This document shows positions 1,168 to 61,650 of a DNA stretch of 64,000 nucleotides, piece by piece. The DNA comes from Zygnema cylindricum (Eukaryota; Streptophyta; Zygnematophyceae; Zygnematales; Zygnemataceae): assembly GCA_037447655.1 (NCBI GenBank), contig JBBHKE010000914.1, positions 118,303 through 182,302 on the forward strand. Direction: 5' to 3'. Every line of letters begins with the position of its first letter. The first letter of the stretch is position 1. The notes beneath the pieces are model-generated. The model had not been told where the DNA came from. It worked only from the letters and a program-made list of their open reading frames with translations, and searched no databases. The translations under genes and the position numbers were made by a program.

Positions 1168-1201
<34 letters not shown>

Positions 1202-1223
1202 CCTCTCTCTCTTTCTCCCTCTC

Positions 1224-1272
<49 letters not shown>

Positions 1273-25844: not shown

Positions 25845-26347
25845 TGTAATTTTGTGACCTCCATTGGTCCACAGAATGTCCAGCTTATATGAAGCCTCTA
25901 GGATAATATTTGCCATTTTGACTTTCCCACTCAATAAGTGCCACCTTGGCACGCAAAAACTCTAACCGACTAAAACACCCCTGTGTAGGCTGGACTTCCC
26001 TGAGTCCGCAACAAAAAAAAATAGAAAAATTTGTTTGCCTTTAGTATTCAATTATGGCTGGCCAAAGATGGCCTATAAATACAAAAGGTCTCTCAGTGAG
26101 AGGGTGCCTCAAAAAGACCTAAGTCCTAAACTTCCTCTCTGAACCGCCTACTACTAGTGTACCTAACCAATCAAAAGACTCTAACGTACAAGAAGGTACA
26201 GGTGCCGCTGTACTTCTTGTACGGCCATGGTACGGCATGGTTGTCGCGTTGACGTCTGTTAGTTCCTGAGCCATAGTTGCTCTCCCAGTAATATCCGTTT
26301 CTGAATGATGGCTTGCCACGTGTCGTCCACCGGCATTGGCTCACAAA

Positions 26348-31199: not shown

Positions 31200-32117
31200 C
31201 CATATAATGTCTCGGCTTCTTACAAAAGTGATAGAGCCTCTTCGGAGACCTTGATCCAAATTCGTCCGATTAGTTTCCTCTCCCTGCTCCACCAAATTTC
31301 CATAAGTTTTCTTGGAATCCTTATCCCCCCAGTTAGTTCCAACAGCCAATGCTTAAACACTCTCCCCTCCTCTCCGAATCTCAACTGTACTTCCCGAACC
31401 ACAATCATCCCAACAACGGAGTTCCAGATCCATCGATGATCTGGCAAATCCTGTACCCTATTAATAATGTTTTCGTAGTCATTTGGAAGTTTCATTATCA
31501 AACTATTCACCTTCTCTTTTTCGGTCTCCATTTTCCTTGCACTCTCCAACTCTATAAATAACCCGGCCAAGTCATTACAAAAGTCTAACATCTTTCCCCC
31601 TTTGTACACATATGTCTGTACCTTCTAATCAGCCAACTTCTGCTGTTGGATCGTACCACTCTTGTAAATATTGACAAGAGCCTCCCACAACTCGTCCGCC
31701 TTGTCCACATGGTGGTGAGGTGTACCAACTGCTTGGGTGAGACGCCCGAGAATAAAATGACTTGCCACAGTGTTGTTGAAGTCCCAAATTTCAGTATCAT
31801 TAGCTTCGGTTTTCTATGCATCCACTACCAATACCAATTCAGTAGGTATCGGTGTGAGTTTCTCCTATCCCTTCATCTTCCTTTTGTCCAACACGATGCT
31901 CTCTTCATCATCATTTACCACCTCTAGCTCTGCAGATCCTCATGTGAATCGAGATCCTCCAAAACCCAGGAGGAAATCCCAATTTTGCAATTGGCCGCCT
32001 CACACGACCACTCATAATGCCTCATAGTTGTTTTTCAAAAAGTGCACCCTTTTTCATGGATTCCCAGTATATAAACATCGATCCATTGAAAATGAGCACC
32101 TTCGAGGGTGGGCCCAT
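31200..32117 (-). pseudogene. element B gag, starting inside the primer-binding site
   Basis: The ATG is at 32117-32115, inside the PBS. The frame begins Met-Gly-Pro-Pro-Ser-Lys-Val-Leu-Ile-Phe and reaches FIYWESMKKGALF, matching the start of C gag, then ends at a TGA where C has Trp. Later blocks include KVNSLIMKLPNDYENIINRV (frame 31220-31609), the usual copia Gag helical region. A zinc knuckle remnant lies near 31230-31200. Confidence 0.75.
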
Positions 32118-32121
32118 AACC
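32107..32121 (-). promoter_or_regulatory. PBS of element B: complement of the anticodon arm of initiator tRNA-Met
   Basis: Minus strand GGTTATGGGCCCACC directly follows the LTR. It is the exact complement of GGTGGGCCCATAACC in plant initiator tRNA-Met (from my knowledge of that tRNA). The ATG within it starts gag. Confidence 0.85.
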
Positions 32122-33052: not shown

Positions 33053-33341
33053 CGAAGCTCAATCTCACATCCATATGCTTTGCTTTAAAATGAAGTTTAG
33101 ATTGGTTGCAATGGCAATTGCAGCCTGATTATCACAAGGTACATAATGAACACCACATTTCATAATTCAAAGCTCTAGGAGAAAGGATTTGTAGAAATTA
33201 ATGGGTCTTTTAGTGTTTTCTAGGTATGAACATGTAAAATAAAATGCAGAAAACAAGTAAGGGCAGTCTGCCTCTAAATCCTCTCTCTAACTCCCACACT
33301 TATCGCAGTCACTAAAAGTTAGAAAAGAAACTAGGGCCATG
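33053..33341 (-). pseudogene. RNase H remnant of the older copia that hosts element B
   Basis: The + strand AAGCTCAATCTCACATCCATATG...GGCAATTGCAGCCTGATTATCAC is the complement of the RNase H DNQAAIAI / KHMDVRL region. It continues the remnant at 25678-25844. From about 33190 similarity fades. Confidence 0.65.
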
Positions 33342-34486
33342 TGTTGAAAAATGGGTATTTTGTAACCTATCTCTTTAGTCAGTTTATGCTTATTCTATAG
33401 TTGTCATACTTGTCTTAGTCAGTGAGAACTAGTAGGCAACCATGGCTGCCACAATGATGAGAAGACGCTCAAAAGACACAGCTCTTCCAAGAGATAGGCT
33501 GTCACAGACATGATTTGATCGTGTGACCTCTCGGATGACAGTCGTACGGAATAACCGTCTACCTTATCCGGTAGGTCTTGATGAATCGATGTACATATTG
33601 TATTTGATAAATACTTAAATAATGCGGCGGCACATTTTATATAGCGGCTTACAGAATGAAATGAACATGGAAGCGTACAGTATCGCACAAAAAACAGTAC
33701 AGCACGAAATGAACGAAACGACATTTAATTTCAAAGGTCGAAATCAAATGTCATTCGCGATCGACGGCTTGCACACGAGTTGGAATTCTGTAGTGATGTA
33801 AAATTTCAACGGTCAACACGGAATGACGACCATAGAAATTCAACTGTCAACATAAAAAACAACGATCGTAGAATTTAAGCGGTCAACAAAGATATTCAGC
33901 GCGACGTTACGATCAAACAGCCAACATTAATCGCCAAATTACAAACGAAAGGCACGCGTGAGTGCCGACATGCCGGAAAAACATTTTGGCAGCACTTCGC
34001 CAAAGTGGAGGAAAACTAACACGTGGCACCATCCTATAAGATGCTTGAGAAGAAAGAAACAAAACAGCGACAACTTATTCGCCACGTGGCAAACAGAGAG
34101 TGGTGCCGCATAATTTCGTACATAAAGTACAGCGGCTACCATACTTTGTATATACATTATGTAGTGTATGATAACTTGATTGGTCTAGAGGGGCTATCAG
34201 TAGGTTCTTAGAACTTAGACATATTTGAAAGCCCTCCCTCTTAGAGGCCATCTATATAAATTCATTGTCTTTGAATAGCCTAAACTTAATGCTTAGGTGA
34301 GCAATTTTAGTGATTCATTTTGCTGCAGACTCAAGGAAGTCCAAGCTACACAAAGGTGTAGTCGGTCAATGTTTTTGCGTGCGAGGGTGGCACTTATTCA
34401 TTGCCAAAGTCAAAATTGCAAATACTCTCCTAGAGGCTTCATATAAGCTGGACATTCTGTGTACCAATGGAGGTCACATAATCACA
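33342..34486 (+). repeat. 5' LTR of element C
   Basis: 1145 bp, TGTTGAAAAATGGG...AATCACA, ending directly at the PBS. It contains GGTCAAC motifs (33810-33890) and, on the minus strand, a tRNA-like segment (33500-33576). Confidence 0.85.
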
Positions 34487-34501
34487 GGTTATGGGCCCAC
34501 C
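34487..34501 (+). promoter_or_regulatory. PBS of element C: complement of the anticodon arm of initiator tRNA-Met
   Basis: GGTTATGGGCCCACC follows the LTR with no gap and continues ACC, so 17 consecutive bases match the expected complement. The gag ATG at 34491-34493 lies inside it, opposite the CAU anticodon. Confidence 0.88.
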
Positions 34502-36227
34502 ACCCTCTAGGGTGCCCATTTTAAGTGGAATAAGGTTCATATACTGGGAAACCATGATGAGGGGTGCACTGTTTGGAAAACGGCTATGGGGCATTGTGAG
34601 TGGTCATGTGGGTCGGCCAATTGCAAAATTAGAAGTTCCTTCACTGTTTCGACGATCTCGATTCACAAGAGGATCTGTTGAGGGAGGTAATAGAGGAAGT
34701 TGGAAAAAACATCGTGTTGGACACAGGGAAGGAAAAGGGAAAGAGAAACTCACACCAATCGCTACTAGATTGGTTCCGGTAGCACATGTTCAAAAAACCG
34801 AGGCAAATGATACTGAAATCCAAGATTTCAACAAAACGGTGGCGACTCATTTTAATCTCGGGCGTCTCACTCAAGTAGTAGCTACACCTCATCTTCATGT
34901 AGACAGGGTGGACGAGTTGTAGAAGGCTCTTGTCAACATTTAGAAGAGTGGTAAAATTCAGCAGCAGAAGCTGGTAGATCAAAAGGTACATGCATATGTG
35001 TACAAAGAGAGAAAGATGTAAGACTTTTGTAATGACTTGGCAGGGTTATTTATGGAGTTGGAGAGTGCAGGGAAAAGGGAGACCGAGAAAGAGAAGGTGA
35101 ATACTTTGTTGATGAAACTCCCAGATGACTACGAAAACATTGTTAACAATGTTAACGATTTGCCAAATCATTGATGCATCTGGAACTTTGTTGTAGGGAT
35201 GATTTTGGTTTGAGAAAGCATAATTGAGATTCGAAAAGGAGGAAAGAGTGTTCAAGCATTGGCTGTTGGAACTAACGGAGGGGGTAAGGATTCCAAGAAA
35301 CCTTATAGAAACTTTGGTGGAGGAGGAAGAGGAAACCAATCGGACGGATCTAGATTGAGGTCTCCGGAGGGGCTCTGTCACTTTTGTAAGAAACCAGGAC
35401 ATTACATAGCGGAGTGTTCTAAATTGACAGAGCTGAGATTGAAGGGGGAGCGGATTGAAAAACAAGCCGAAAGAAAGAAGAAGGCATTTGTGGGAACACA
35501 AGTCATGGGAGAGGATTCTGATGAAGACGATGTAGAACTCCTCCTCAACGAGGAGCTGGAGGTGAAAGTTGAGCCAGAGATTCTAAGGAGGCAAAAGTGT
35601 GCTTTCGAAGGAGTAAGAGAAGCTTCAGAGAAGGTTGGATTATTGATTTAGGAGCCTCTATGCATATGTGTATAGATAAATCATTGTTTACTAAAATGAG
35701 AAAGATCCCTACTGTAGAGATAATGTATGGGGATGGGAGAATAATAACCACTAATTTATTGGGATATGTGCATCTGAGAGTCTTAGTCGATGGAAAGACA
35801 TCTATAGTCACTCTTTCGGATGTTCTTTTTATCCTAGAGTTGAACAAGAATCTTATCTCTACGTCGGTCTTAGATGATAATAGCTTACAGACTAGTTCTA
35901 CGAAAGGAGTCTTTGTTGCTAGCTATGAGAATAAAGTGTACTTCAGAGCTGAAAAGGGTAGCCAAGGAATGTTTAGGTTGAATTTGAGTAATGGCAATAC
36001 AGGAGTTTACTATGCTGGTGTAAGTGATTTGCTGATGTGGCATAAAAGATTGGGACATGTGCATCTAGATAGATTGAAAAAAATGAAGAAGATGGGTGTA
36101 TTTGAGGGAATACATTTTGGGGACAATGAGACTTTGGATGATTGTAGCGGATGTGCCCAAGGTAAGGCCCACAGATTGCCTTTTCGAAAAACCGCAACAT
36201 ATAAGGGTGTAAAGGTCTTAGATCTAG
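34491..36227 (+). pseudogene. element C gag-protease-GAG-pre-integrase, decayed
   Basis: The frame opens at the PBS ATG (MGPPPSRVPILSGIRFIYW), the short hydrophobic-Gly-x-Tyr-x-x-Trp start of copia Gag, and runs to a stop at 34920. Shifted frames continue: a zinc knuckle CHFCKKPGHYIAEC near 35380-35421, protease IIDLGASMHMC near 35637-35672 (the Ser/Thr after the catalytic Asp is Leu here), and WHKRLGHVHLDRLKKM with CSGCAQGKAHRLPF for the HHCC domain. The frame is then cut by element D. Confidence 0.85.
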
Positions 36228-37074
36228 TGTTGTTCTACAACCACTGGTGCAGGTGGAGAAGCAGCAGTAGAAGTAGAAGTAGACATGATACACTCTCAAA
36301 AGCTATCAAGAATCCTACCAAACAACTAATCTTAAGTGCTCACCAATTCTTATACAATGATTCAAACTTCACAATAATCTATCAGAATATAGAGTAGCAT
36401 AAAAAGTGATAACTCCCAAAGTATCAGCACAATTGACCCGACAACACTCAAGATATAATACTCAGAAGTTTCCCAAAACGTGTTTGCAGTTTTACTACTT
36501 GGAAGTCTGGATACATAATATGTTATGAGTCCTAAGTCTTATACTTGTGTTGAACTGGCAACACTAGTGTACTTGAGAGGAACATCAAACCACCAAGCTA
36601 CCACTAATCTGTCAAGCTACCATTGAGCTATCACTAAGCTACCACTGAGCTATCACTAAGCTACCACTGAGTTCCCAACTAAGTTACCACTGAGTTCCCA
36701 CTAAGTTCACTAGAATCGTATCTATCGCAGTTGCTCTATCCTGTACAGAATCACATTAAAAATATAAGACGCTGCGTTGTCCGTACGGACCATATGAAAT
36801 ATAATCGGGGTTGCGTTGTCCTGTCTGTGTTGTTGCTTCGCTGCTGCGCTGCTCTGCTGCTGCGCTGCTCTGTTGTATAGCAGCTGCTCTGCTCTATAGC
36901 AGCTGCTCTGCTGTATAGGAGCTGCTCTGCTATATAGCAGCTGCTTTGCTGTATAGCAGCTGCGCTGCTCTGTTGTATAACAGCTGCGCTGCTCTGTCTG
37001 TATAGCAGCTGCGCTGTTTTGTTTGTAAAGCAGCTGCGCTGCTCTGAGACTGAAAGCTTTCCAAAAAGACAACA
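36228..37074 (-). repeat. 3' LTR of element D
   Basis: On the + strand TGTTGTTCTACAACC...AAAAGACAACA. It contains an array of about eight units around TATAGCAGCTGCTCTGCTG (36840-37045). The partner LTR at 40385-41231 has the same length. Confidence 0.9.
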
Positions 37075-38286: not shown

Positions 38287-40380
38287 TTAAAATCCTAGGC
38301 TAGTCAAGAATTCATCAAGCTTTAGATTCCACTGTCTAGGGGCCTGTTTTAGGCCGTACAAAGATTTTAGCAACTTGCATACTAAGTGCTCTTTTCCTGG
38401 TTCCACATACTTTTCAGGCTGTTGCATGTAAATGGTCCTATTTTTAATATAAACTGCACAATTTAGAGCCTCAGCCCAGAATTTTGAATCCACATTTTTA
38501 TCTGCGAGCATCGACCTAGAGCTCTCCGTGAGAGTTCTATTCAGTCTTTCCGACACCCCATTTTGTTCCGGTGAATATGGAACGGTCAATAGATGAATTA
38601 TTCCCTCCTCGAGTGAAAATACTTCAAATTCCTTTGATGTATACTCACCACCATTGTCCGATCTGAGCTGCAAAATAGGTAAATTATGAAGCTTTTCATC
38701 CCTTGCTTTATAGTGTTTGAAATGACCAAACACTTCACTCTTCTCCTTCATGAAGTAAACTTTTGTAAACTTGGAAAAATCATCTGTGAAGGTGACCATA
38801 TATTTCATCCCCCCGGTAGATGGAACCTTCGCCGAACCAAAGACATCCAAATGAATTTGTTGTAAGAGTTTGTGTGACCGATGCTCAGACTCTTTAGGAA
38901 ATGGCAATCTGTGGATTTTGCCTAAAGCGCAACCATCACAAGTTTTGACCGGCTCATTTGTGATTGATACACCCTCTATTTTTCCAGAAAGGACCATTTT
39001 CCTCAAACTATCATAGTTTACATGGCCTAATCGTTTATGCCACAACTCATCTGAGTGCAAAACACCGGAGTACAAAACATCATTTTTCTTGGTATTAGCC
39101 ATATCCATGCGATACATCTTGCTACTATCTCTAGTACCTGTAACCGCAACCTTGCCATTTTTGCTAACAACCTGCCGACCATTTTTCAAATTAACCTCAA
39201 AGTCTTTACTCTCTACCAACGACGTAGAAAACATATTTTTCTTAAAGTCAAGCACAAATAAGACATTGTGAAGAGTCCTTTCAATTGCTTTTCCTTCTAC
39301 ATCAACTAGTAAGGACACCTCACCCACAGCACGAGTTTGGACACTCATTCCACAAGCATAATAAATATTTTTCTCCGGCGTTGTTTTCAGATTTTTGAAG
39401 ATGGCCTTGTTCCACCACATGTGGGCTGACGCTCCTGTAACCATTATCCATCCAGGGTCTTTCGCGCCCTCTATTGCAGCCGCAATAGCGAATAGATCCG
39501 TATCATCCTTCGTAGAAACCGTCAAAGTCTCGTCATGGAGAGACGAAGAAGCCGAAAATAGTGCATTTCCACAAGGTGTAGGCTCCGTGAAGCCTTTGTA
39601 AAACGGGCTTTGTTGCCATCTTGGCCTGTATAAACCTGTATCGTTAGCTTTTTTAAGCTTAGGACGGAATTTGTATCCATGACCTCTCTCACTACAATAA
39701 AAGCATGCATTGTTTGATTGTCTATTTCCACTTTGATTAAACTGTCTGAACTGATTAAACTGATTCCTTTGCTGATTAAACAAACCTTTTCTCTCAAAGT
39801 CCGAATTAAAAGCCTCTACTTGCTCAACATTGAGAATATTAGACGTAGCTTCCTCTTCTAGTAAAATATTGATGGCTAATTGTAAAGTCCAGCTAGCTTT
39901 ATCTTTTTGTTTGAGCATGTCAGATGCTCCTTTCATACTACGAGAGAGACCCCTCATGAGCAATGCTGCCTGTTGAAAAGGAGGAAACACCCCACCTGCA
40001 CAAGCATGTGCATCTACAAGGATACGAAATTTGTTAGAATATTCAGCCATTGTACCGCCAGTGTACTTATAGTCCCAAAATTTTCCAACCAATAGAAGCT
40101 CTTCCTGGACATTGGCCTTTTCATAATCACTTTTAAGTGATTTCGAGAAATCAATTGTTTTTTTCATTTTTATCCTAGACATAGCTAAGTCCTCAGATAT
40201 ACAAAATTTCAGAATAGAACGAGCTTGCGTATTTTTCTTAGACCATGACGGATCAGATTCATCCAGCGAACCATCCAAGATATCTAAAAGATTGACATTT
40301 TCAACATGTGTCTCCACCATATCCGCCCAGTAAACATACTTATCCCCGGATTAGATAGGAATTCTTGATGACACGCCCAT
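38287..40380 (-). pseudogene. element D gag-protease-integrase-RT fusion frame
   Basis: The frame starts at the ATG 40380-40378 in the PBS region (Met-Gly-Val-Ser-Ser-Arg-Ile-Pro-Ile), meets one TAA at codon 10, then is open for 677 residues from 40320. Gag contains LQLAINILLEEEATSNIL. The zinc knuckle CFYCSERGHGYKFRP has Arg in place of its last Cys. The protease site is Val-Thr-Gly-Ala-Ser, so the catalytic Asp is lost. WHKRLGHVNYDSLRKM and CDGCALGKIHRLPF follow, then integrase with HLDVFG, RSDNGGEY and NGVSERLN. A deletion then joins integrase (IKNRTI) in frame to RT (YMQQPEKY...SLYGLKQAPRQWN), removing the integrase C-terminus and RT N-terminus. Confidence 0.9.
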
Positions 40381-40384
40381 AACA
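40370..40384 (-). promoter_or_regulatory. PBS region of element D
   Basis: Minus strand TGTTATGGGCGTGTC follows the LTR. Nine bases (GTTATGGGC) match the initiator-tRNA anticodon-arm complement; the rest has drifted. The ATG is in frame with gag. Confidence 0.6.
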
Positions 40385-41231
40385 TGTTGTTCTACAACCA
40401 CCGGTGCAGGTGGAGGAGCAGCAGTAGAAGTAGAAGTAGACATGATACACTCTCAGATGATATCAAGAATCCTACCAAACAGTTGTTCTTAAGTGCTCAC
40501 CAATTCTTATACAAGCATCCAAACATCACAATACTCCATCAGAATATAGAGTAGCATAAACAGTGATAACTCCCAAAGTTTCAGCACAATTGACCCGACA
40601 ACACTCAAGATATAATACTCAGAAGTTTCCCAAAACTTGTTTGCAGTTTTACTACTTGGAAGTCTGGATACATAATATGTTATGAGTCCTAAGTCTTATA
40701 CTTGTGTTGAACTGGAAACACCAGTGTACTTGAGAAGAACATCAAACCACCAAGCTACCACTAATCTGTCAAGCTACCATTGAGCTATCACTAAGCTACC
40801 ACTGAGCTATCACTAAGCTACCACTGAGTTACCTACTAAGTTACTAGTGAGTTCCCACTAAGTTGACTAGAATCGTATCTATCGCAGTTGCTCTATCCTG
40901 TACAGAATCACATTAAAAATATAAGACGCTGCGTTGTCCGTACGGACCATATCAAATATAATCGGGGTTGCGTTGTCTTGTCTGTGTTGCAGCTTCGCTG
41001 CTGCGCTGCTCAGCTGCTTTGCTGCTCTGCTGTGTAGCAGCTACTCTGCTGTATAGCAGCTGCTCTACTGTATAGCAGCTGGTCTGCTGTATAGCAGCTG
41101 CTCTGCTGTATAGCAATTGCGCTGCTCTGTTGTATAGCAGCTGCGCTGCTCTGTTTGTATAGTAGCTGCACTGCTTTGTCTGTAAAGCAGCTGCGCTGCT
41201 CTGAGACTGAAAGCTTTCCAAAAAGACAACA
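40385..41231 (-). repeat. 5' LTR of element D
   Basis: 847 bp, same length as 36228-37074, with the same CAGCTG-rich array (about 41000-41195). Confidence 0.9.
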
Positions 41232-42549: not shown

Positions 42550-43603
42550 TGTTGTTCATAGCCAATTTCAGCCATGAATGTACCCTCGGAAGCACAACAG
42601 ACTACCCCAAAATAGCCTCTTTTGATTCCACTCGGAATTCTACAAAATTACCAAACCAACCTGAAACTTCACAAACAGATAGTTCTTAAACTACTTAGCA
42701 TTCCCACCAATTTTCATATAACAATACCAAACTGTATAATCACAACACCCAGTCAAAGTTGCAAAAAAATAGCTTGCCAAAACTTTGATAAACATGACTA
42801 ACTTCACAATGAAGCTCCAGGCAAACCACAAACACAGTAGGTCTGCAAATTTGCTATAATATTGCCAATACAAGGAGAATTACACATGCAAAATATCAGA
42901 TAATTCTGCCTGTAGAACTGAGAGAAATTCTCAAATGAAATTCCCAAAAAGGAGCAAAAACAGTTTCTGTCCAAAAAGTTCCTGAGTCTAGATATGACTG
43001 AGTCCAACAAATATACACTACAGCTTACTACTAACTGTACGGAGGAATACCAGACGTACCTAATCAAACAACTACCTCTATTAATGTGAGTGTACATGAG
43101 ATTTACACTAATAATTAATACATAGGACAAAACATTGTTAAATATTTACACGTCTTAGGAATTCCGTCAAACGAATCAGGACCGTTCAAAATAAATATCA
43201 TGTGATGGACGCAATTTCACGTCCCTCACCAAACTGACGGTGTTGCCGTCTATAGCTTCGGTGGCGTCCAATTCATCACATGTTTGACCGCCGCATTATG
43301 TTTCGTACGGTCGACGTACAATTTAACTCATTTCGAATATTAATCATCGGATCGTCCTCGTCCATTTCTCCAACACATTCTACACTTTCGTCTATGTTTC
43401 TTCGCGTCACTTGAAGTCCAATTCCGTACGTTTGAATACTCTTAGTACCTAGTACGCAAGCTGCTATGACTACGATGTGACCAGCGCAACATGGCAGCAC
43501 AATATCTTTTCCATACACGCTGCTATGGCTGCGGTGTGACCAGCGCAGCATGGCAGCATAGCAATGTGATATAGAGAGGACAAAAGGTTTCCAAAAACCA
43601 ACA
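42550..43603 (-). repeat. 3' LTR of element F
   Basis: 1054 bp, TGTTGTTCATAGCC...AAAAACCAACA on the + strand. It carries GCTGCTATG...GTGTGACCAGCGCAGCATGGC repeats near 43460-43560. Confidence 0.88.
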
Positions 43604-44241
43604 CTCCCCCAAACCTTTAGACTCTCTCTGTCACTGAGTCCACACTCCTCCGTTATTCCCTTTTGTTCAACCGTTACTCAAATAATTCCGTACATCCCAA
43701 AACAGTTAGTATCATTACTCCCTCAATTCGCATATCCTTTAAAACCTCCACTGTAAATCTAGATAGCATACAAAATATAAACCGCGTACTGTACTCACGG
43801 AACATTTTGTACGCAGGAAACGCCGCGTACGCACGAAACTCATTTTCCAAAAACCAACACTCCCCCGAAATTTAGTTTTGTGCACCCGAATAAAATTAGA
43901 GTATAGTGGCTGCTATAATTGCGATGTCAGATAAGGGCAGCATAGCAGCATAGCAACGCCGGATAGCAATATAGCAATGCCACATAGCAACACAACAGTA
44001 TGGCAACGCCGCATAGCAACATAGCAGCGCCACAAGATGTGTTCAACGTCTCCACTTCTCCAACTCCCTGCGGCCATCTCTTCCAAAATTTGTCCTTCCT
44101 AGACACATCATTGCTTCCGCTGCCTCTTTCTAGGTCTTTAAAATAAAATTATATTTTTCAATCAATTTTAGAACAAACAAAAACCAAAATTCAAAATTCC
44201 ACGAATATTACCGAATGTTAATGGTAGTCACTTCCGCAATG
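43604..44241. other. non-coding 3' part of the F interior
   Basis: Between the polypurine tract and the gag stop lies a repetitive stretch of ATAGCAACGCCGCATAGCAAC-like units (43900-44035). No ORF is supported. Confidence 0.6.
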
Positions 44242-45488
44242 TTACTTTTCACGCCGTCTTCTTTTGATCACTTTCGGAATACGTTTTCTTCTACGATTCA
44301 TCCTTTGAATTCTACTTCCTTTCTTCGTTTTCTTACTGAATTTTGATGTTTTTCCCATTTTCGCAATTTTTTTTTCTTCTTCTGTATTATAAACTTCTTC
44401 ACGTACTCCAATTTTTTGAACACTTTTCCTCTCTCCTTCTTCTTCCGTATTAATCTCCTCCTGTAAATTATTTTCGGTTTCAACTTCCAAATCCCTTTCA
44501 CTTCCTCCTAATATTCTTACTTCAATAACCTCTTCCTCTTACACCTCTTCACCACTCACCAATCTGTTGTTTGTAAAAGTGACAAAAACTGACTCTTTTT
44601 CTATCACCTCTTTCTCCACTCTATTTCCAGTAACAACAAGGTTTTCTTTTCCTTCCTCATGTTCTATATCTCGAAGAGCAACAACCGGTAAGTATACAAA
44701 TTCTTTGACGGGAAGTGTAACCCTTCGTTTAGGGGGTCGGACTCTATTGTCATCCCATTCATTCTTGAAAGTTCTTGCAACACATGGACTTTTATATAGC
44801 GGACATACCTTGAAAGTATGCCCTACATCATTACAGTAAAAACAGTTTTCTACCTTACAACTTTTCTTATTTCTTTGAAACTGTGATCTGACACCTTGAC
44901 AATTCACCCTATTCTTTAAAGACTCGTTATTAGCATCTTCCTCTAAAAGACACTTGATTGCTAAAGGTAAGTTCCAATCCCCTTTATCAACTTGTCTTAA
45001 TCTATCTAAAGCACACCTATGTTCCTTCGGTAATCCTTTCATTAACAGGAAAGCCTTTTGAGCATTGGTAAAGTTTCTTCTTGCAATATCATTTGCTGCA
45101 AACAGTATTTGTATCCCAATACAATAATTCAACATTTAACCTCCATCATACTTATGCTCAATTATTTTTGTAACATTACTCATCCAGTGATACACAGAAG
45201 TCTTTTGATATGCACGTTCTAAACACTTCCATAATTCAGCTGCACTTTGTAAACCAAGGTAAGTCATTACAAGTTCCTCGTTCAAGGATAGCTTGATAGT
45301 CAGCAAACAGTCATTATTCTTCTCCTCCCATCCAATCGATGATTCACCACATGTCCATCCACCACATCGATTAACTTCCTCGACTTGAGGTAGCTCTCCA
45401 TAATACTCCTCCAATAGTAATATTTAGATCCATCAAATATGGGTAATATTGATTCATTGAATATGGGTAGCCATTGGTGTGGGCCCAT
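44242..45488 (-). pseudogene. element F gag, with a charged C-terminal tail
   Basis: The start is the PBS ATG at 45488-45486 (MGPHQWLPIFNESILPIFDG, then YYYWRSIM). One frameshift near 45330-45400 and stops at about 45135 and 44540 interrupt it. Middle blocks are LTIKLSLNEELVMTYLGLQ, KAFLLMKGLPKEHRCALDRL and LPLAIKCLLEEDANNESL, typical copia Gag. The zinc knuckle CFYCNDVGHTFKVC is intact. Past the stop near 44540 the same frame runs on into an acidic then Lys/Arg-rich tail to 44242, suggesting the stop is recent. Confidence 0.85.
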
Positions 45489-45492
45489 AACC
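45478..45492 (-). promoter_or_regulatory. PBS of element F: initiator tRNA-Met anticodon-arm complement
   Basis: Minus strand GGTTATGGGCCCACA directly abuts the LTR end ...CAACA; 14 of 15 bases match the expected complement. It contains the gag ATG. Confidence 0.85.
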
Positions 45493-46512
45493 TGTTGTTC
45501 ATAGCCAATTTCAGCCATGAATGTACCCTCGGAAGCACCACAGACTACCCCAAAACAACCTTCTTTGATTCCACTCAGAATTCTACAAAATAACCAAACT
45601 AAGCTGAAACTTCTCAAACAGATATTTCTTAAACTATTTAGTATTCCCACCAATTTTCATATAACAATACCAAACCGTATAATCACAACACCCAGTCAAA
45701 GTTGCAAAAAAATAGCTTGCCAAAACTTTGATAAACATGACTAACTTCACAATGAAGCTCCAGGCAAACCACAAACACAGTAGGTCTGCAAATTTGCTAT
45801 AATATTGCCAATACAAGGAGAATTACACATGCAAAATATCAGATAATTCTGCCTGTAGAACTGAGAGAAATTCTCAAATGAAATTCCCAAAAAGGAGCAA
45901 AAACAGTTTCTGTCCAAAAAGTTCCTAAGTCTATAAATGACTAAGTCCTACAAATATACATTACAGCTTACTACTAACTGTACGGAGGAATACCAGACGT
46001 ACGTAATCAAACAACTACCTCTATTAATGTGAGTGTACATGAGATCTTTACTAATAATTAATACATATGACAAAACATTGTTAAATTTTTACACGTCTTA
46101 CGAATTAGGTCAAATGAATCAAGACCGTCCAAAATAAATATCATGTGATGGACGCGATTTCGCAACCCTCACCAATCTGACGCCGCTGCCGTCTATAGAT
46201 CCAGTGGCATCCAATTCATCACATGTTTGACCCCCGCATTATGTTTCATACGGCCGACTTAAAATTTAACTCATTTCGAATATTAATCATCGAATCGTCG
46301 TCGTCCATTTCTCCAACACATTCTACACTTTCTTCTATGTTTCTTCGCGTCACTTGAAGTCCAATTCCGTACGTTCGAATACTCTAAGTACCTAGTACGC
46401 AAGCTGCTATGACTGCGATGTGACCAGCGCAGCATGGCAGCGGTGTGACCAGCGCAGCATGGCATCATAGCAATGTGATATAGAGAGGACTAAAGGTTTC
46501 CAAAAACCAACA
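45493..46512 (-). repeat. 5' LTR of element F
   Basis: 1020 bp; matches 42550-43603 with a small deletion in the GCAGCATGG repeat part. Confidence 0.88.
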
Positions 46513-46984
46513 CTTCGCTCTTGTTGTCAGGTGTCCCTCCGTTCAAATTCTACTTAGTCTAGTGGCAGGGGAAGACATAGATGTGCACCAGATGGACATC
46601 AAAACCGCTTTCTTACACAGAGAATTAGAAGAAGAGATTTTTATGCGACAACCGAAAGATTTGTGGAGAAAGGAGAAGAAAGTAAGGTGTGCAGATTGAT
46701 AAAGTCTCTTTATGGACTAAACTAAGCTACACGCCAATGGAACAAGAAGCACAATGAGTTTTTGACGATCTACGGATTTATCCGAATCAGTTCGGGTCAT
46801 TCCATCTATCAATTTGAGGACGAAGAAGGTATAATTTTCATTCCTTCTATGTTGATGATTTGCTTATTTTTGAGTAAATCAATAGAGAAAATCAATAGAT
46901 TGAAAAAAGATCTAAAGAGTATATTTGAAACGAAAGACTTGGGGGAGACAAAGTATTTTTTCGGAATTCAGATGGAGAGGGATA
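46513..46984 (+). pseudogene. element C RT core (resumed after F)
   Basis: The reading resumes with LLSLVAGEDIDVHQMDIKTA and FLHRELEEEIFMRQP, then SLYGL (with a stop after), QWNKKHNEF and, in a shifted frame near 46845-46870, the catalytic YVDDLL. INRLKKDLKSIFETKDLGET follows before E begins at 46985. Confidence 0.8.
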
Positions 46985-47971
46985 TATTATTTTTGGAAAG
47001 CTTTAAGTCTCACCAAATTTATTCGACGATGGAAAAATAGATCTTTAGGGACACGCGTCGTCACTTGAAGCACAGTGCATGTTTTTTGAATGGTACCGAC
47101 ACCAGAATTGTAACACTGCAGCAACAACGCAGATGGAACAAGCGCAACTACGGATATATTTGATATGGTCCGTACGTACGAACGCAGACTTTGACACAAC
47201 GAACAAACGCAACTGCGAATCTTTTGGTACAGGAAATCGCAGTTTCTACGCAAAAAGACAAACGCAACTGCGACTATTTTTGGTATGGGACAACGCAGCT
47301 GCTACAAAGCTGCGGATATTTGAATGTGATCACGAATTGGACAGCGTTGCTACGGTTGATATGAATCAAGTCAACGGACGAGATTCATAACGGAATAATT
47401 AAGTGACTTGCTGAAAGATGTTCTGCATCAGCCAAATGAACGTGCCCAAACAATTGTCACTAAGCCAGGCGAGAAGTATTTGAACAAATCACCTGTATAG
47501 GATTCTCATTTATATTGATTGTATAGTGATAGATTAGTTTTAGCGTGATTAGGAGCACTTAGACCTTAGTGGCAGTTTAGTTCTTTTGGCCGTATATTTT
47601 AGGAACATTTGTATCGGCGGTACAACACTATGTAGTAGGACAACTGAGTGAAGAGTATAAGACTTAGGACGTAGAACATTTTATGTATCTAGACTTCGAG
47701 ACTATGTAATCTGCAAACTATTTTTGTGAAACTTTTGAGTTGCATATCTTGGTGTACGTGTGATCAATTGTGCTGAAACTTTGGGAGTTGTCAGACTTTG
47801 TGATAAACTATACTATGGTATAGTTTGAAGCAGTTTGGACCTTTGTGTCAACTTTATTATACTGTAGAAAGTAGTTGTTTGATCGGATTCTTGGTAAGCT
47901 TCTGTGGTGAATTATGTCTACTTCTACTACTACTGCTCCATTGCTCCACTTGCTCTAGTGGTCGTAGTACA
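46985..47971 (+). repeat. 5' LTR of element E
   Basis: 987 bp, starting TATTATTTTTGG (original TGTTGTTTTTGG by comparison with 58404) and ending GTAGTACA. The PBS that follows (TTGGTTATAAGCC) is a drifted version of the half-tRNA site. Confidence 0.75.
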
Positions 47972-47999
47972 ATTGGTTATAAGCCTGTTATCAAGAATT

Positions 48000-49251
48000 C
48001 ATATCTTCTTGGGGGAAAAATACGCTTATTGGGTGGATATGGTGGAGATAGTCTTCGAAAATGTTAACATTATGGATATTTTGGATGGTTCACTTGTGGA
48101 AACGAATCCGTCTTGGTGAAAGAAAAATTCGCAAGCTCGGTCGCTTTTGAAATTCTATATCTCAGAAAAATTGACTATGTCACGGATAAAAATGAAAAAG
48201 GCGATGGATATCTAGAAATCTCTCAATGATGATTTTGAAAAGGCTAATGTTCATGAAGAACTATTTTTGGCTGGACGAATTTGGGACTACAGATACACGA
48301 GTGGCACAATGGCAGAATATTGTAACAAAATTCGAATACTAATAGATTCTCATGCTTGTGCAGGTGGATCTTTTCTTCAGTTTCAGCAGGTTATTTTGCT
48401 AATGAGAGGTTTTCCTATTGCTATGAAAGCAGCGTCAAATTGGCTGAAACAGAAAGGTAAAGCTAGATGAAAACTACAGTTGGCTATTAATTTAATATTA
48501 GAAGAGGAAGCTTATTCTAAAATTCTTAATGGTGAAAAAGAAGTAGAGGCGTTTAGCACAAAATTTTACAAAATTCCTCAGTTTAATCAGCAAAGAACAA
48601 AATTCCTCAGTTTAATCAGCAGAGAAATCTGTTTAATCACAATCATAATAAATTTTGACAGTTTAATCAAAAAGGAAATAGACAATCTTTCAATGCTTGT
48701 TTTATTGTAATGAAAAAGGTCATGGATGTAAATTCTGTCCTAAGCTTAAGAAAGCTAATTAAATAGGTCTGTGCAGGCCTGGATGGCAGCAGAACCAATT
48801 TTTTAAAGGCTTCACGGGATCGTCACAATGAGGAAATGCACTTTTTTCGACGTCTTCATCTCATCAGAACGATTCTCTTTCACTCTCTGGAAAGGAGGAT
48901 GATGATCTATTTGCTATGGCGGAAGCAATGGAGGGCGCGAGAGACAATGGATGGATAATGGACACGGGAGCGTCGGCCCACATGTGTTGGAACAAGGCAG
49001 TTTCCAAAAATCAAAAATCAACACCGGAGAAAAATATCTACTATGCATGTGGAATGAGTGTGCAAACGCGGGCTGTAAGTGTTGTCTCCTTGCTAGTTGA
49101 TGTAGAAGGCAAGGCAGTTGAGAGAACTCTTCATAATGTTCTCTATGTACCAGATTTTAAGAAAAAATTGTTTTCAACTTCTTTGGTAGAGAATTTAGGG
49201 TTTGAGATCAATCTGAAACATGGCAGGCAGGTTGTTAGCAAAATTGGAAAA
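48000..49251 (+). pseudogene. element E gag and protease, decayed
   Basis: Blocks parallel to D: VNIMDILDGSLVETNPSW, RIWDYRYTSGTMAEYCNKIR, LLMRGFPIAMKAASNWLKQK and LAINLILEEEAYSKILNGEK. Then comes a zinc knuckle remnant and the protease IMDTGASAHMCWNKAV near 48953-49000, with the catalytic Asp kept. Several stops. The frame ends in VVSKIGK at 49251 where G is inserted. Confidence 0.8.
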
Positions 49252-49926
49252 TGATAAGAATAAGAGTCAATCGGAATGCGCTCACAAATACTTAAATGTC
49301 TCAATGCGGAAGCGATATTAAAATGAAATCAAACATTACAACACATCAAAAGCGCATAATCCAAGATAGAGAGAAATTAAATACTCAATAACATAAACTC
49401 ATATTAACTTAATCCTTAAACATTACACTTCTCTTAATTCATTCCTCCTTAATTGACTCTTGAATGATTCCTAATTGTTATACAATCTAACTCACACAAA
49501 GGTTTTTTAACTTAGCCACGGAAATAATCCAGAACACTAACTCTAAAAGTGTCTAAATGTATTTAGACGTAAATGTGGTACAAAACAAAATGAAACTACT
49601 AGAAACCAAACTGACAGTCATATACGACAAACTTAACTTACTCGAAACGAAACAACTAGACGTATGTCGCGCGAAACGAAACTTCTCGACGTACTAATCT
49701 AGAACTTAACCGAAACGAAACCAAATCTAATCGTGTACGTGTGAAAAGTGCACGCACGAAATAATGAATCAAACTATACGAAACAAAACCGAATTCGCAA
49801 ACCGACGCACGGAGTACTAAATGAAACCAAGCTAAATACGCGAAGTGACGCGAGACCAAATCTAAACCACACTAAAAACGAACAAGCATCACGTAAACCT
49901 AGATTGAACAATTGTACGTCTTAACA
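49252..49926 (-). repeat. 3' LTR of element G
   Basis: 675 bp, + strand TGATAAGAATAAGAGTC...CGTCTTAACA. Confidence 0.92.
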
Positions 49927-49969
49927 ATCCCCCTCTCAATGTTGAATCTACACAAAATCTTAACCGAAC

Positions 49970-51505
49970 TCAAAATAATCCTAACTTAGGCCTTCCTCTC
50001 ACAAAGACATCATACATAGTAGCTTTAGTTAACATGTCCGCTGCTTCTTCACCCGTTGGTATAAAAATGAACTCAATCTCTCCAGCATTTTCTAAATCTC
50101 TTACAAAATGCCATTGAATCCTAATGTGCTTAGTCCTCTTATGAAACACTAGATTCTTAGCAAATGCAATGCTAGACATGCTATTTGAGAACAACTTCAT
50201 ACACTTAATAATAATTCCCAACTCACTTAACATCTCTCTTAACCAAATTGAAGCTTTGGCAGCATGGCAAGCCGCCATATATTCGGCCTCCGTCGAACTC
50301 AATGCTACCGTAGGTTGAAGTCTCGAACTCCACGAAATCGCACCTCCACATAAAACAAATGCGTAACCGGATGTTAACTTTCCCGTGTCGAAGTCTCCAC
50401 CCCAATCGGAATCGCAATATCCAAAACAATCTAACCCTGAATCCGCCTTATAAACTAAACCATAACTTAACGTTCCAACCAAATATCTAAAAATTCTTTT
50501 AACACTCTCCGAATGACACTTCTTAGGTGCTTGACAATACTTGCTCACAATACTAACAGCAACTGAAATATCTGGTCTAGTTCCAACACTAAGATACATC
50601 AAACAACCAACTGCTTCTCTATAAGGTACATCAATTGTTGGCTCACTTTCTGCTATACTCAAGTGAACTCTAGGATCCAAAGGTGTACTTAAAGGCTTAG
50701 CATTCAACATAGAGAATCTAGCTAAGACTTCCTTACAATATTGGTACTGACTAAGTTTCAAAGAACCAGGCTCATCTCTAATCACCTCAATACCAAGAAT
50801 GTACTTAGCTTCTCCTAAATCTGTAACTTTGAAGAATTTACTGAGAAAACATTTCCATTCGTGAATCCTTTCAAGACTGTTTGAAATCATAATAAAATCA
50901 TCAACATACACACTAAAAATATTTTGATCAACTCCTTCTCCTTTCACATAAACACCTAAATCTGAAAACGTACGAACAAAGCCAAAATCCAAAAGTACCT
51001 TATGAAGACGAGTGTACCATGTCCTTGGAGCTTGCTTAAGTCCATAAAGCAACTTCTTCAACTTCCACACATGTCCAGGTTTGCCCGAAACTCCTTCTGG
51101 AATCTTCATATAAACTTTTTCTTCCAATTCTCCGTTTAGAAAAGCAGTTTCCACATCCATTTGGTGGATATGCTTTCTCTTAGCAGCAGCAATCGCAATA
51201 ATCATCCTTAAACTATCAAACTTAACTACAGGTGCATATGTTTCTGTATAATCTATACCTTCTTTCTGCTGAAAACCTTTACCAACTAATCTTGTTTTAT
51301 ATTTGATTATTTCACCTGATGCACCCGTCTTAGTCTTAAATACCCATTTACAATCAATAGTTTTCTTTCCCTCAGGTAAAACTACTTCTTCAAATGTTCC
51401 ATTATCAATAATAGACTTAAGTTCTTTCTCAAAAGCTGGTTTCCACTTTTCATTCCAATCACATGATGCAACAGCTTCTGAATAGGACTTAGGATCCCCA
51501 TTCAA
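49970..51505 (-). pseudogene. element G reverse transcriptase and RNase H, 511-residue open frame
   Basis: Uninterrupted. RT: CKWVFKTKTGASGEIIKYKT, LVGKGFQQKEGIDYTETYAP, HQMDVETAFLNGELEEKVYM, LLYGLKQAPRTWY, and the catalytic box YVDDF (copia elements usually have YVDDM or YVDDL). RNase H: CDSDWGGDFDTGKLTSGY, LSSTEAEYMAACHAAK, RTKHIRIQWHFVRD and EAADMLTKA. It ends TAA near the polypurine tract. The start shown is the first Met; the true frame joins integrase upstream through a short damaged part (51506-51767). Confidence 0.92.
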
Positions 51506-51767
51506 ATGCTCACTCTGTAATCGCTATAAAAGAAACTCATTTAACCTAGCATCTGAAATAAAATTAACCGACTTATCTTTAGCATTCATATGAAGGGTTA
51601 ATCTCTCAGGAGCCTATACTTTATTCCCTCGATTACTTCTCCTAACAACAACTTCTTCTTCAACAACATCATCTCTTTCACCCTTCTCACTTACAGATGG
51701 CAAACTACATTCACTACTTTGTCAGCTAAGGGATCTTTCATTGGACTTAGAACTTTGACTTCCATTC

Positions 51768-52925
51768 TCACTTTTCAAGCTTTTCAGAATCAGATTGGGA
51801 AGATTCAAATCTCTTACCAATTTTAATTGATTTCTTCTTTTTCAATGGAATTTTTTCATCCTCCTCTTCGTCACTCTCGTCATTAATTTTGAACTCTTCC
51901 AAATTGCTCTCTTCCTCAAAATCCAAACTTTCTTCCTTATCTTTTGTGAATTCCATTGCTTTCGCCAAATCTTCGTGAAACTCCACATTTCTTGATTCGA
52001 CAACTGTTCGAGTAGCCGGATTGAAGATTCTGTGTTGACTTGAATTTTGACTATACCCAACAAAGATACCCGTCCATGATTTTGGACTGAATTTTCCGGC
52101 TCGATATCTTTTCTCGATGTAGACAGTGGCTCGGCATCCCCAAATCCTCAAATGTCGAACAGATGGAATCCTGCCACTCCACAATTCTTCAGGCGTCTTA
52201 TCTCCAAAAATCGAAGTTAGTCTTCTGTTACAAATGTAATTTGCTGTAAGAACAACTTCTCCCCAAAACCTCACACTATGTTTAGTGTTATGCAACATAA
52301 CTCTAACCATCTCTTAAAGTGTCATATTCTTCCTCTCAGCAACTCCATTAGACTCACGAGAATAGGCAGCCGTAAATTGTTGTTTAATCCTTCTTTTCTG
52401 ACAAAAACATTTATAAGCAACAAATTCTCCTCCACTATCTGATCTGACTGCTTTTTACTTTCTATCCGTTTCTCTCTCAGCCATTACAACAAATTCCCGA
52501 AACTTATATAACGCTTCTGACTTATGTTTCAACAAATATACCCAACTCTTTCGATTATAATCATCCACAATTACAAAGATATATTTATGTCCTCCTAGAC
52601 TTAATGGTTTGACGTCTCCACATAAGTCTACATGAACAAGCTCAAGGGGAGCACTAGCTCTATACTTCACATCTTTAACAGGATGAGACTTTCTAATCTG
52701 TTTTCCTTTGCTACAACCATTACAACCTTGAACTTTCTCTCCGGAAACACACTCTAATACTCTTACTACTCCACTTTTCATCATATTTTTTATATTTGAC
52801 TCAGAAGTATGACAAAGTCTATGATGCCATAAACTTAGATCTCCACTTTCAAAACTTACAGCATTAACTGAAATTACTGATTTCTGATTGTCCTGTGGTC
52901 TAATCCATTTTAACTTACTTTGCAT
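51768..52925 (-). pseudogene. element G GAG-pre-integrase and integrase
   Basis: LSLWHHRLCHTSESNIKNMM and CNGCSKGKQIRKSHP form the HHCC zinc domain. VHVDLCGDVKPLSLGG and VDDYNRKSW hold the first catalytic Asp. A TAA at 52457-52455 interrupts before RSDSGGEF (second Asp) and NGVAERKN (Glu), and a second TAA near 52316 precedes MVRVMLHNTKHSVRFWGEVV. The C-terminal part ends with an acidic and Lys-rich stretch near 51800. Confidence 0.88.
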
Positions 52926-53027
52926 ACAATCGGTTACATAACCTTCTCCAAATTGATTTCCTTCTCTATCTTGGAAAACTATTCTTCCATTTTCAAACGA
53001 GATTACTCTACCACCATTCCTTTGTAT

Positions 53028-54652
53028 CTATGGAACACTAACAAGGTTTACAACACCATCAAGAAAATACAAAGTATTGTTCAAATTCACTTTCTTTACA
53101 ACAACTTGACCATTCAAATTGTTAACAGGTAAATCTAATGTGACAGTTCCCACTGAATCTATCGGGACAACATGTCCACTAGCAACCGTTATAGTCTTAG
53201 GAACTGTAAGTTTTCTCAAATCCGTAAACAAATTAAGATCACTACAAACATGATGAGTTGCTCCAGAATCAACTATCCAATCTTTATAACTTTGACTCCC
53301 ACATGCGGAATTTGCAGAATTGACAACAACATTTCTATCTTTTTTCATCATCATAGAAAAGTTTAGAGACTTATCGCCTTGATCGTCATGAAAATCTGAA
53401 TAGTGGGTTTGATGTCCTCCTCCACGAGATTGTCCAAATCTTCCACGACCTCGTCCTCGATGTCCACCTCGATCTCTTCCTCTTTTCGAATAGTAAGATG
53501 ATCTTCCTCCATTTCGTTGAAAACATTGAGCACTAACATGTCCCCATTTTCGACAAATATTGCATTGCTTTTCCCTATCCAGACAGTTAGTAGCCATATG
53601 TCCTTCCTTATTACACTTATAACAAATAACATGATTTACATCACCTTGATCGCTATAACCTTTTCCAAATCCTGAATACTGAAAATTGTTTCTACCCCCT
53701 CTTAATCTAAACCTTCTTCTACCTCCACGACCACGTACAAAGTATACCTCAGACGTGCCAGTGAGGTTTACATTACTATTTCCGAATCCTCTACTATCTT
53801 TCTCTTACTTTTTTCTGCACCTTTTAGAAGGTTAATAGCAAAATCAAAAGTGGGTTTCTCTGTAGATCTTATAACTTCTACTGTAACATCAAACTTAGAT
53901 GGTAATCCATTTAGAAACACAAATACTTTTTCATCTTCAAGAGGAAACTTTCCTGCGCTATTCAACTGCTCTATCAAAACATTAAATCTTTTTAGAGCAT
54001 CATCAATCGACTCATTACTCTTCATCCTAAACTGAATAAAGTCCTGAAATACATAATTAGATTTAGTTGCGAATCCTTTCTCATACAAATTTTGTAGATG
54101 GGTCCAACAAGCATGAGCGGTATCATGAGTTAACATATGCTCATGAACTGAACTACTACTACTCTGAAGTAATGCAGTCATAGCTGCCATATCTTTAGTA
54201 TCCCACTTTTTCCTTCCTTTTTCATCTAATGGTCTTTTCTCTTCTCCTGTAAGTATTTTCCACAATTTCTTTAGAGTAAAGATTCCTTGAATATATCTCT
54301 TCCATACAGGATAATTATTTCCATTATGCATGATAGTCTTATACGACACCTTGTAATCTAACTCTTCATCTGAACTCGACTCATCATCATCATCATCATA
54401 AAAAGGCACTTTCATTTTGCCATTTTTACTCTTCTTAGAACTCTCATCATCTGAATTGCCCCCAAAGGTAAAAGTTTTACCGAAAGATTGTCCTTCTTTT
54501 TTTGCCTTTAGAAATTCGTAAAGTTCCTCCATAGTCGTGGGATCAAACTGAATTGTGAGACTCTCATTCGCCATTGATAACTTCTTCAATTCTCCAACTC
54601 CAAAAGTGACTTCAGTGTCTTCGCTCTTTGCGGAGTATTCCTCCACCATCAC
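53028..54652 (-). pseudogene. element G gag and protease
   Basis: Gag (53768-54652, 294 residues open) starts MMVEEYSAKSEDTEV, has an acidic Asp/Ser stretch, then WDTKDMAAMTALLQSSSSSV, DALKRFNVLIEQLNSAGKFP and FVFLNGLPSKFDV. A single frameshift near 53785 leads to an Arg/Gly-rich box (RGRGGRRRF), then two zinc knuckles, CYKCNKEGHMATNC and CNICRKWGHVSAQC, and the protease IVDSGATHHVC with its Asp kept. A TAG near 53036 separates it from the integrase part. Confidence 0.9.
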
Positions 54653-54711
54653 TTATAAACTCTTAATCAATTCTTAACTCCAATCTAAATAAACACTGCT
54701 CCAATACCAAA

Positions 54712-58688: not shown

Positions 58689-59287
58689 TGAAATTCTGTG
58701 ACCTCCATTGGTCCACAAAATGTCCAGTTTATATGAAGCCTCTAGGATAATATTTGCAGTTTTGACTTTGGCAATGAATAAGTGCCACCCTGGCATGCAA
58801 AAACTCTGACCGACTACACCTCTGTGTAGCCTGGACTCCCTTGAGTCCGTAGCAAAAAAAATCACTGAATTTGCTCACCCGAGCATTAAGTTATGGCTGT
58901 TCAAAGACAGCATATTTATACAGATGGCCTCTGGGAGAGAGGACTTTCAAAATTTTGTCTAAGTCCTGAAAACCTCACTAATAGCTACCCTAAGCCAATC
59001 AAAATAAAGTACTCTAATTGTTGTACATACATAGTACATCAGCCGCCGTACTTTATGTACGGATATATTCGGCACCACTCACGTTCTGCCACGTGGCTAA
59101 TAGGTCAACATCATTCTGTCCCTTTTCTCTTCCGGCATCCTATAGGATGATGCCACGTGTCATTTCCTCCCATTTCGTCGAACTGCTCCCAGATAATTGT
59201 TCCGGCGTTCCGGCACTCACGCGTGCCGTCCGTTCTTTTTCGTCGATCGATTTCACGCGTTCGATCTGACGGCGCGCCGAATAAATG

Positions 59288-59652: not shown

Positions 59653-59663
59653 ACGTAGCTTTT

Positions 59664-59673
59664 NNNNNNNNNN
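59664..59673. other. assembly gap (10 N)
   Basis: Ten N bases; the true length is unknown. Confidence 1.
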
Positions 59674-60709: not shown

Positions 60710-61242
60710 TTATTGGCCTTCTAAGGCATCACCACCTCGGTGGAGCCATCGGCAGATTAACTTCTCGCCGACCTCCTCCCACTTCCACTCCTTCCCTTTT
60801 TTGCCCTCCAATAAGGTGAGAACCATTGTGAACTCAGGAGGTACGGATAAGAGTAGCAACGAAACCTTTGTTACAGTTGGAAGGTGGAGACCGACTGATT
60901 TTGCTTCGACTAAAGTCTTAGTGAAATGGGAAATGTTTTCTCTGGGCGACATTGCTACATCATAGACTTTGTGAGTTAGAAATCGGAGCAGTCGGATTTT
61001 TGTTGTCATGGATGAACTCTCAAGTGTCTCTTCTGTTAACCTTTCCCCTTTAAGCTCGCGGATATCGTTTTCCAAGGCTCTCCCTTCACTTGCATCCAAT
61101 TCTCGGATCTGATATTTTTCCCTGGTTGTTATTGTTGAAAAACCTCTGATTCTTCTCCTCTACTCTCAACCTTCTCGCGATGACTGTTACTTTATTCTTT
61201 TGGAATTTCGAACTCCTTTGGGCACCCTATGGGTGGGCCCAT
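60710..61242 (-). pseudogene. element I gag, starting inside a half-tRNA PBS
   Basis: The start ATG is at 61242-61240 in the PBS: Met-Gly-Pro-Pro-Ile-Gly-Cys-Pro, then a stop after 16 codons. The 129-residue frame 60710-61099 has SSMTTKIRLLRFLTHKVYDV, ISHFTKTLVEAKSVGLHLP and LLLLSVPPEFTMVLTLLEGK, typical of copia Gag. Confidence 0.65.
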
Positions 61243-61246
61243 AACT
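61232..61246 (-). promoter_or_regulatory. PBS of element I
   Basis: Minus strand AGTTATGGGCCCACC: 14 of 15 bases match the initiator tRNA-Met anticodon-arm complement. Confidence 0.75.
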
Positions 61247-61650
61247 TGCCGCGTCTAGCTGGTCATCCAAACTAACGGGAAGACTTCCTCGTAACCACAG
61301 ACAACTTAGACCGGCCACAAATCTCCGGCCACAAATCAACCACGCAGAAGGGCTTCGAGAGTCACAGAAAATAGAGATATGAAAGATGTAAAGTATGGAA
61401 AGATATGTAGTTAATAGACAAGATAGACAAAGTAGACTCTCATGAAAAGCTGTAGCTTTGATTATTGGTCCTTTTAGGAAAAAATGTTACAATGTGGACT
61501 TTTTAATAAAGCCGAAACTATTCCACTTTTTGTCTTGCTCTCTATGTCTAACTTGCTTCGCTAAATTGAAGAATAAAGGTATTTTTTCTGACTAATCTGC
61601 TTTGTCTTTTCTATGCAAACAAACATTTTACACTAAATAAGCCCCCAAAG
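61247..61650 (-). repeat. probable LTR of element I (start only)
   Basis: Sequence adjoining the PBS; the + strand begins TGCCGCGTCTAGC, so the LTR ends CA on the minus strand. The other edge is not defined and no partner LTR was found. Confidence 0.35.

Follow-up and report, generated by a model that had tools for sequence, protein, structure and literature searches.

Elements of the hemivirus type (Drosophila copia, Ty5 and Volvox Osser; genus Hemivirus of the International Committee on Taxonomy of Viruses) carry a primer-binding site (PBS) directed against an internal stretch of the initiator tRNA-Met, together with a copia-type Gag-Pol. Half-tRNA priming has been stated for copia and anticodon-loop priming for Ty5 (PMC5371799), Osser has been classified as a hemivirus (PMC6317226), and among plant Ty1/copia lineages half-tRNA-Met sites are listed for Osser, Bryco and Gymco-II (REXdb; Neumann et al. 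2019, PMC6317226). A further point of reference is yeast Ty1, whose PBS has been placed within the GAG open reading frame (ORF) (PMC4974528) and has also been worded as lying within U5 (PMC5371799). Here we analyzed a 64-kb stretch of the Zygnema cylindricum genome (contig JBBHKE010000914.1; "the window" throughout), in which self-comparison revealed a nest of copia elements. These elements share the type of PBS and the copia-type Gag-Pol with the hemiviruses, and differ from them in that the PBS reads as gag codons, with an AUG upstream in the long terminal repeat (LTR). By comparison, gag of Drosophila copia starts after a separate leader, and GAG of Ty1 starts inside the 5' LTR. We consider it probable that the Zygnema elements represent a hemivirus-type copia lineage in which gag starts in the LTR and the PBS forms internal gag coding sequence.

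The element in which the site was first recognized, copy C, harbors GGTTATGGGCCCACC as an exact match at 34487-34501 of the plus strand, directly 3' of an LTR ending in CA. Compared letter by letter with the host tRNA gene, the complementarity covers 17 nt (34487..34503, +; GGTTATGGGCCCACCAC) rather than the 15 nt initially reported. It is the anticodon arm of the initiator tRNA-Met that is complemented, and not a tRNA 3' end as in the genus Pseudovirus. Across the 2689 contigs of the host genome (352.8 Mb), GGAAGCGTGGTGGGCCCATAACCC was present at five places, all of which ARAGORN called tRNA-Met with anticodon CAT, and the one of these that was read letter by letter (stretch L135) contains GGTGGGCCCATAACC. 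These host genes match the site, and the PBS is thus directed against the anticodon arm of an initiator-type tRNA-Met that the host itself encodes. One tRNA pattern yielded zero matches in viral and genome contigs, and it was a different form that matched in the host genome. Much of the original prediction, which had been made from the letters of the window, is borne out by these data: the site does lie right after the LTR of copy C and does complement the anticodon arm, its ATG at 34491 sits in the frame that copies B and D also use for Gag, and the half-tRNA priming it cited for Drosophila copia and Ty5 agrees with the literature (PMC5371799). An initiator tRNA-Met of this species lacking the matching stretch had been named as the finding that would speak against it; instead, five host tRNA-Met genes carry the stretch.

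Could the site, or the agreement of reading frames around it, be an accident? The window holds few lineages, and two of its members (E and H) have decayed too far to be informative, which leaves some room for this view. Set against it are the exact match to the host tRNA and the frequency of the site. The 15-mer occurs twice without mismatch in the window (34487-34501, +; 32107-32121, -) and twice more with one mismatch (45478-45492 and 61232-61246, both -), while shuffled versions of the window contained on average 0.03 matches at up to two mismatches. Genome-wide, we counted 5974 exact sites (3019 + 2955) as compared to six for the reversed pattern. For closer inspection we read 80 copies, taken in list order from 100 listed places among the 5974 with the 20 on contig C46 set aside; in 73 of these 80 the dinucleotide CA directly precedes the site. 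Coincidence thus appears very improbable, and the data support the prediction that the PBS of these copia elements is a primer site for half of the initiator tRNA-Met.

We then asked where the Gag frame begins. In copy C, the frame from the PBS ATG runs from 34491 to 34922 (+), comprising 143 codons and a terminal TAG (34920-34922), and starts with MGPPPSRVPILSGIRFIYWE. It was assigned to Gag by an IYWE motif and by its agreement with the frames of copies B and D; the 142-residue Gag piece itself gave no Pfam match and no protein match at E-values up to 1. In all three copies a GTT-ATG-GGC-CCA frame leads from the site to the Gag motif, which reads IYWE in C and B and YYYW in D. The same frame can be followed upstream into the LTR. 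The 5' LTR of copy C (33341..34486, +; left edge inferred from TGTTG, TATA-like motif at 34253) has a tail in Gag frame (34467..34490, +) with an ATG at 34467, eight codons before the PBS ATG, and a TAA at 34479-34481 separating the two. Copy B shows the same arrangement on the minus strand, its PBS (32107..32121) continuing in the same frame into Gag, with an LTR ATG at 32141 and a TAG at 32123-32121. The putative 3' LTR tail of copy B (25845..25864, -; assigned by order and strand) has the ATG and is open to the LTR end where the 5' LTR carries the stop, and so is the tail of a fourth family member, I (58689..58708, -). None of the other three LTR tails that this family has in the window contains the TAA of copy C.

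A comparable layout is seen in other elements of the window. In element D (45478..45518, -), the frame is open from an LTR ATG at 45518 via the PBS (45492-45478) into Gag, reading MAEIGYEQQ-VMGPHQW, and in element G (40370..40443, -) an LTR ATG at 40443 is followed by 21 open codons that pass via the PBS-like TGTTATGGGC into gag. The frame crosses the PBS-like site of G as it does in C, B and D, with a stop inside gag further on. The LTR ATG precedes the PBS ATG by 8 codons in copies C and B and their family, by 10 in D and by 21 in G. Element H (47914..47989, +), a decayed relative of G, has retained the LTR ATG in a broken frame and a PBS remnant, GGTTATAAGCC, and element E (61232..61266, -), whose PBS has one mismatch, has its LTR ATG at 61266 with a stop in between. 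Element F (54649..54709, -) provides a contrast, as its PBS, TGGTATTGGAGC, resembles the tRNA 3'-end type when judged against TGGTATCAGAGC, which we take to be the usual plant PBS, and its gag ATG lies about 60 nt past the LTR, outside the PBS. Spanning 49249-55386, F is a natural contrast from the same genome, a conventional-like PBS with the gag ATG beyond it. Overall, the upstream frame is open to the LTR ATG in 6 of 11 LTR ends (B 3', I, D 5', D 3', G 5' and G 3') and meets a stop first in the other five (C, B 5', H, E and the contrast element F). When B and C were compared by codon phase, their differences were only weakly uneven (20, 29 and 37 over 141, 140 and 141 positions; 5, 11 and 10 in the first 49 codons) and were not used as evidence.

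The genome-wide sites allowed us to examine this arrangement on a larger scale. An ATG is located exactly 24 nt, or eight codons, upstream of the PBS ATG in 4932 of the 5974 exact sites (2487 + 2445). Among the 80 copies read, a sample in which L066 is cut by a contig end, L110 and L111 look like duplicates and the longest measurable frame is 503 codons owing to stretch length, 74 have a literal ATG at -24, and in 65 the frame is open from the LTR ATG into the PBS frame. The longest downstream frame lies in the PBS phase in 69 of them. Sorted by downstream open length, the LTR ATG is open in 18 of 27 copies with fewer than 50 codons, 10 of 12 with 50-99, 19 of 22 with 100-199, 9 of 9 with 200-501, and 9 of 10 reaching 503, the exception being L051. 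Taken together, an open LTR start is present in 18 of the 19 copies whose downstream frame spans 200 codons or more, compared to 47 of the 61 copies with shorter frames (Fisher one-sided p = 0.075). Moreover, each of the six bases forming the LTR ATG and the following codon is identical in 75 to 79 of the 80 copies, and several flanking bases vary. Such near-invariance would be the pattern expected of a start codon, with shared ancestry contributing.

These observations bear directly on the claim that gag starts at the PBS ATG. Finding intact relatives whose gag starts at an ATG outside the PBS had been named as counter-evidence, and the long-frame copies, nearly all open to the LTR ATG, largely provide it. 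The proposal to look for another in-frame ATG ahead of Gag likewise led to the LTR ATG, albeit with the TAA in between in copy C; it is because this TAA cuts off the LTR ATG that the PBS ATG of copy C looks like a start. That the PBS AUG is the only authentic start, the LTR AUG being an incidental upstream AUG, seems improbable to us. The stops between the two AUGs in C, in the 5' LTR of B, in E and in L051 would fit such an arrangement, and the Gag motif appears to lie far enough downstream of the PBS AUG for a Gag N-terminus to fit in between. It is contradicted by the LTR ATG standing at exactly -24 in the large majority of genomic sites, by the open frames in most of the copies read, and by the separate open LTR starts of D and G. 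Of the dual role originally ascribed to one 15-base stretch, priming and coding are therefore supported, and its use as translation start is weakened; Met-Gly-Pro is indeed encoded by the PBS, though more likely as part of an internal Val-Met-Gly-Pro than as the first residues of Gag. The start-codon claim survives in part, as the PBS AUG may act as a second start, a point to which L051 is relevant.

In the arrangement we favor, with gag starting in the LTR, these Ty1/copia elements would prime reverse transcription with the 5' half of the initiator tRNA-Met, and the gag frame would open at an AUG in the final bases of the 5' LTR, before the PBS ATG. According to the established scanning rules, ribosomes would reach the LTR AUG first and the PBS AUG second. 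Ribosomes would then read straight through the PBS, encoding the internal Val-Met-Gly-Pro in fixed phase, and the primer would anneal where ribosomes must elongate. With the primer on the ribosome path, translation and priming would be expected to exclude each other on one RNA. Ty1 offers a likeness, with its PBS inside the gag ORF and its gag AUG in the 5' LTR, a layout that the open frames of the sampled copies and of D and G reproduce; it is from Ty1 that such a position of the PBS is otherwise known. The difference is that the Zygnema elements would use a half tRNA and that the complement of the anticodon supplies an AUG codon.

Several findings weigh against a gag start in the LTR. An open in-frame ATG would occur by chance in the last 25 codons before the LTR end with a probability of 0.18 to 0.27 per tail (for both G tails computed on tails cut a few bases off the LTR end), and the evidence of the window alone for a lineage property is therefore weak. 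Shared ancestry accounts for part of the conservation of the LTR ATG. Downstream of its TATA-like motif (34253) and ahead of the LTR AUG, copy C has two short out-of-frame AUGs, at 34289 and 34369. The sequence context of the LTR AUG is also poor: position -3 is C or T in 62 of 74 copies, with G at +4 in 71 of 74, whereas the PBS AUG has G at both -3 and +4 and hence the stronger context. Given this difference, scanning ribosomes may skip the first AUG. Further points on this side come from stop codons in the LTR tail, namely at least 215 sites genome-wide (counted in one sequence context) with a TAA at the codon where copy C has it, two same-strand pairs of TAA sites about 5.3 kb apart (contigs C90 and C109) in which neighboring LTRs share the stop, a TAA in one of six readable 3' LTRs of copies with GAA in the 5' LTR, and copy L051, whose downstream frame is open for at least 503 codons despite a TAA in its 5' LTR.

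Several of these points would be accommodated by dual initiation, in which leaky scanning past a weak LTR AUG reaches the PBS AUG 24 nt downstream and yields two Gag proteins differing by 8 residues. Either AUG might then suffice, and stop-bearing copies could still make Gag. This possibility, which we regard as less likely than a single start in the LTR and yet well ahead of a sole start in the PBS, draws on the contexts of the two AUGs and their shared frame, on L051 with its stop and long open frame, and on the abundance of stop-bearing sites, including the tandem pairs with a common stop. Slightly more tentatively, one may picture the AUG that pairs with the CAU anticodon of the primer as itself functional in initiation, with leaky scanning carrying ribosomes past the weak LTR AUG. 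The same tRNA species would either decode it as initiator or, as a cleaved half, cover it as primer, creating a built-in switch between translation and reverse transcription. What argues against dual initiation is that L051 is alone among the 19 long-frame copies in lacking an open LTR start, and that the stop, as detailed below, looks like a later change.

The TAA at codon 5 of the LTR tail was seen in 7 of the 80 copies read, as in copy C; AAA occupies the same codon in the same context at 327 sites genome-wide. For 15 TAA copies we retrieved the region where the 3' LTR was expected. Six gave a readable 3' LTR and none of the six had the TAA, the codon beginning with G in four and with A in one, and the sixth reading TTA in a tail with three mismatches. 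In one copy (L145) the next element of a tandem array followed, likewise with TAA, and the remaining eight had no readable 3' LTR, one of them giving a four-mismatch match that we treated as chance. Of eight GAA control copies, six gave a 3' LTR (four with G, one A and one T at this base; the match of one control, L152, lay well away from its predicted position and may come from a different element), the seventh proved to be a tandem array, and no 3' LTR was obtained for the eighth. In the young copy L051, the 5' LTR and the 3' LTR (L136) differ at one place in 500 nt, and this place is the stop between the LTR ATG and the PBS, present in the 5' LTR only; the site may be mutable or the coincidence due to chance. 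On balance, the LTR pairs suggest that in most cases the stop arose in one of the two LTRs once the element had inserted, and that the 3' LTR can be hit as well.

We also considered the TAA as an inherited, transposing variant. This is contradicted by all six readable LTR pairs but not by the tandem pairs on C90 and C109. A PBS again adjoins the second LTR of the C90 pair, which therefore serves both neighbors, and duplication of the unit would explain a stop common to tandem pairs as well as transposition would. On contigs C90 and C7 (L145, L151) and on C109, primer sites lie about 5.3 kb apart in the same orientation, with a further PBS behind the next LTR on C90 and on C7, pointing to tandem arrays of elements that share LTRs.

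How retroelement RNA is balanced between translation and reverse transcription has been called a major question (PMC3735527). Thousands of sites in a single plant genome put a PBS and its AUG where translating ribosomes would pass, which makes this conflict directly testable. In LTRs of this kind, an AUG also stands a few codons before the end, and an LTR-driven transcript could thereby join a short peptide to flanking DNA. In the window, 3' or solo LTRs at 25845-25864, 58689-58708, 42550-42575 and 36228-36286 have an ATG and a frame reaching the LTR end, in some cases running into flanking DNA.

As to described relatives, the likeness of Osser, Bryco and Gymco-II to the Zygnema elements consists in the half-tRNA-Met site and was judged on PBS type; the sections of the lineage survey that treat them are silent on the gag start or a frame through the PBS (PMC6317226). 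In the open-access literature searched, to which closely aimed searching was applied to a limited extent, no description of a half-tRNA site read as gag codons turned up. Scans of viral contigs for the PBS covered 22 + 20 stretches, in which no copia-like Gag was seen in the frames around the sites and the reverse transcriptase motif was found in 0 of 42; searches for relatives in viral contigs and in genome contigs retrieved none.

Regarding the architecture of the window, matches in the self-comparison can be read as a nesting in which C (+) is split by G (-) and D (-), and H is split by F. Target duplications bound G (TCTAG) and D (CTTCG), and because both were inserted with such duplications, C is older than either. 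The ORF of element G contains, by Pfam, Retrotran_gag_2, Pol_BBD, gag_pre-integrs, rve (487-584) and RVT_2 (627-677), placing integrase before reverse transcriptase in the order of Ty1/copia (Pseudoviridae), and its five best protein matches are 30-47% identical. The piece of copy C that was analyzed gave only Pol_BBD and gag_pre-integrs, and element F showed Gag and reverse transcriptase domains. The leader of copy C folded no better than shuffled sequences (z -0.23), and for an LTR stretch resembling a tRNA T-arm, Rfam yielded no tRNA match at E-values up to 1. In element D (42550-46514), 1 kb LTRs that are 91% alike enclose 1.9 kb of internal sequence with a Gag start, in which no Pol was noticed; D is perhaps a gag-only derivative. 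Both LTRs of element G (36845-37010 and 41002-41167) contain 19-nt tandem repeats rich in GCAGCTGCT. A run of N near 59660-59675 marks a gap or masked stretch. Outside the elements, pieces of a host gene for neutral ceramidase (Pfam) extend over 116-10420, and the exon at 9830-10420 matches plant ceramidases with 56 to 61% identity in the best 25 of 155 matches, the organisms named among the 120 of these 155 that were listed being flowering plants.
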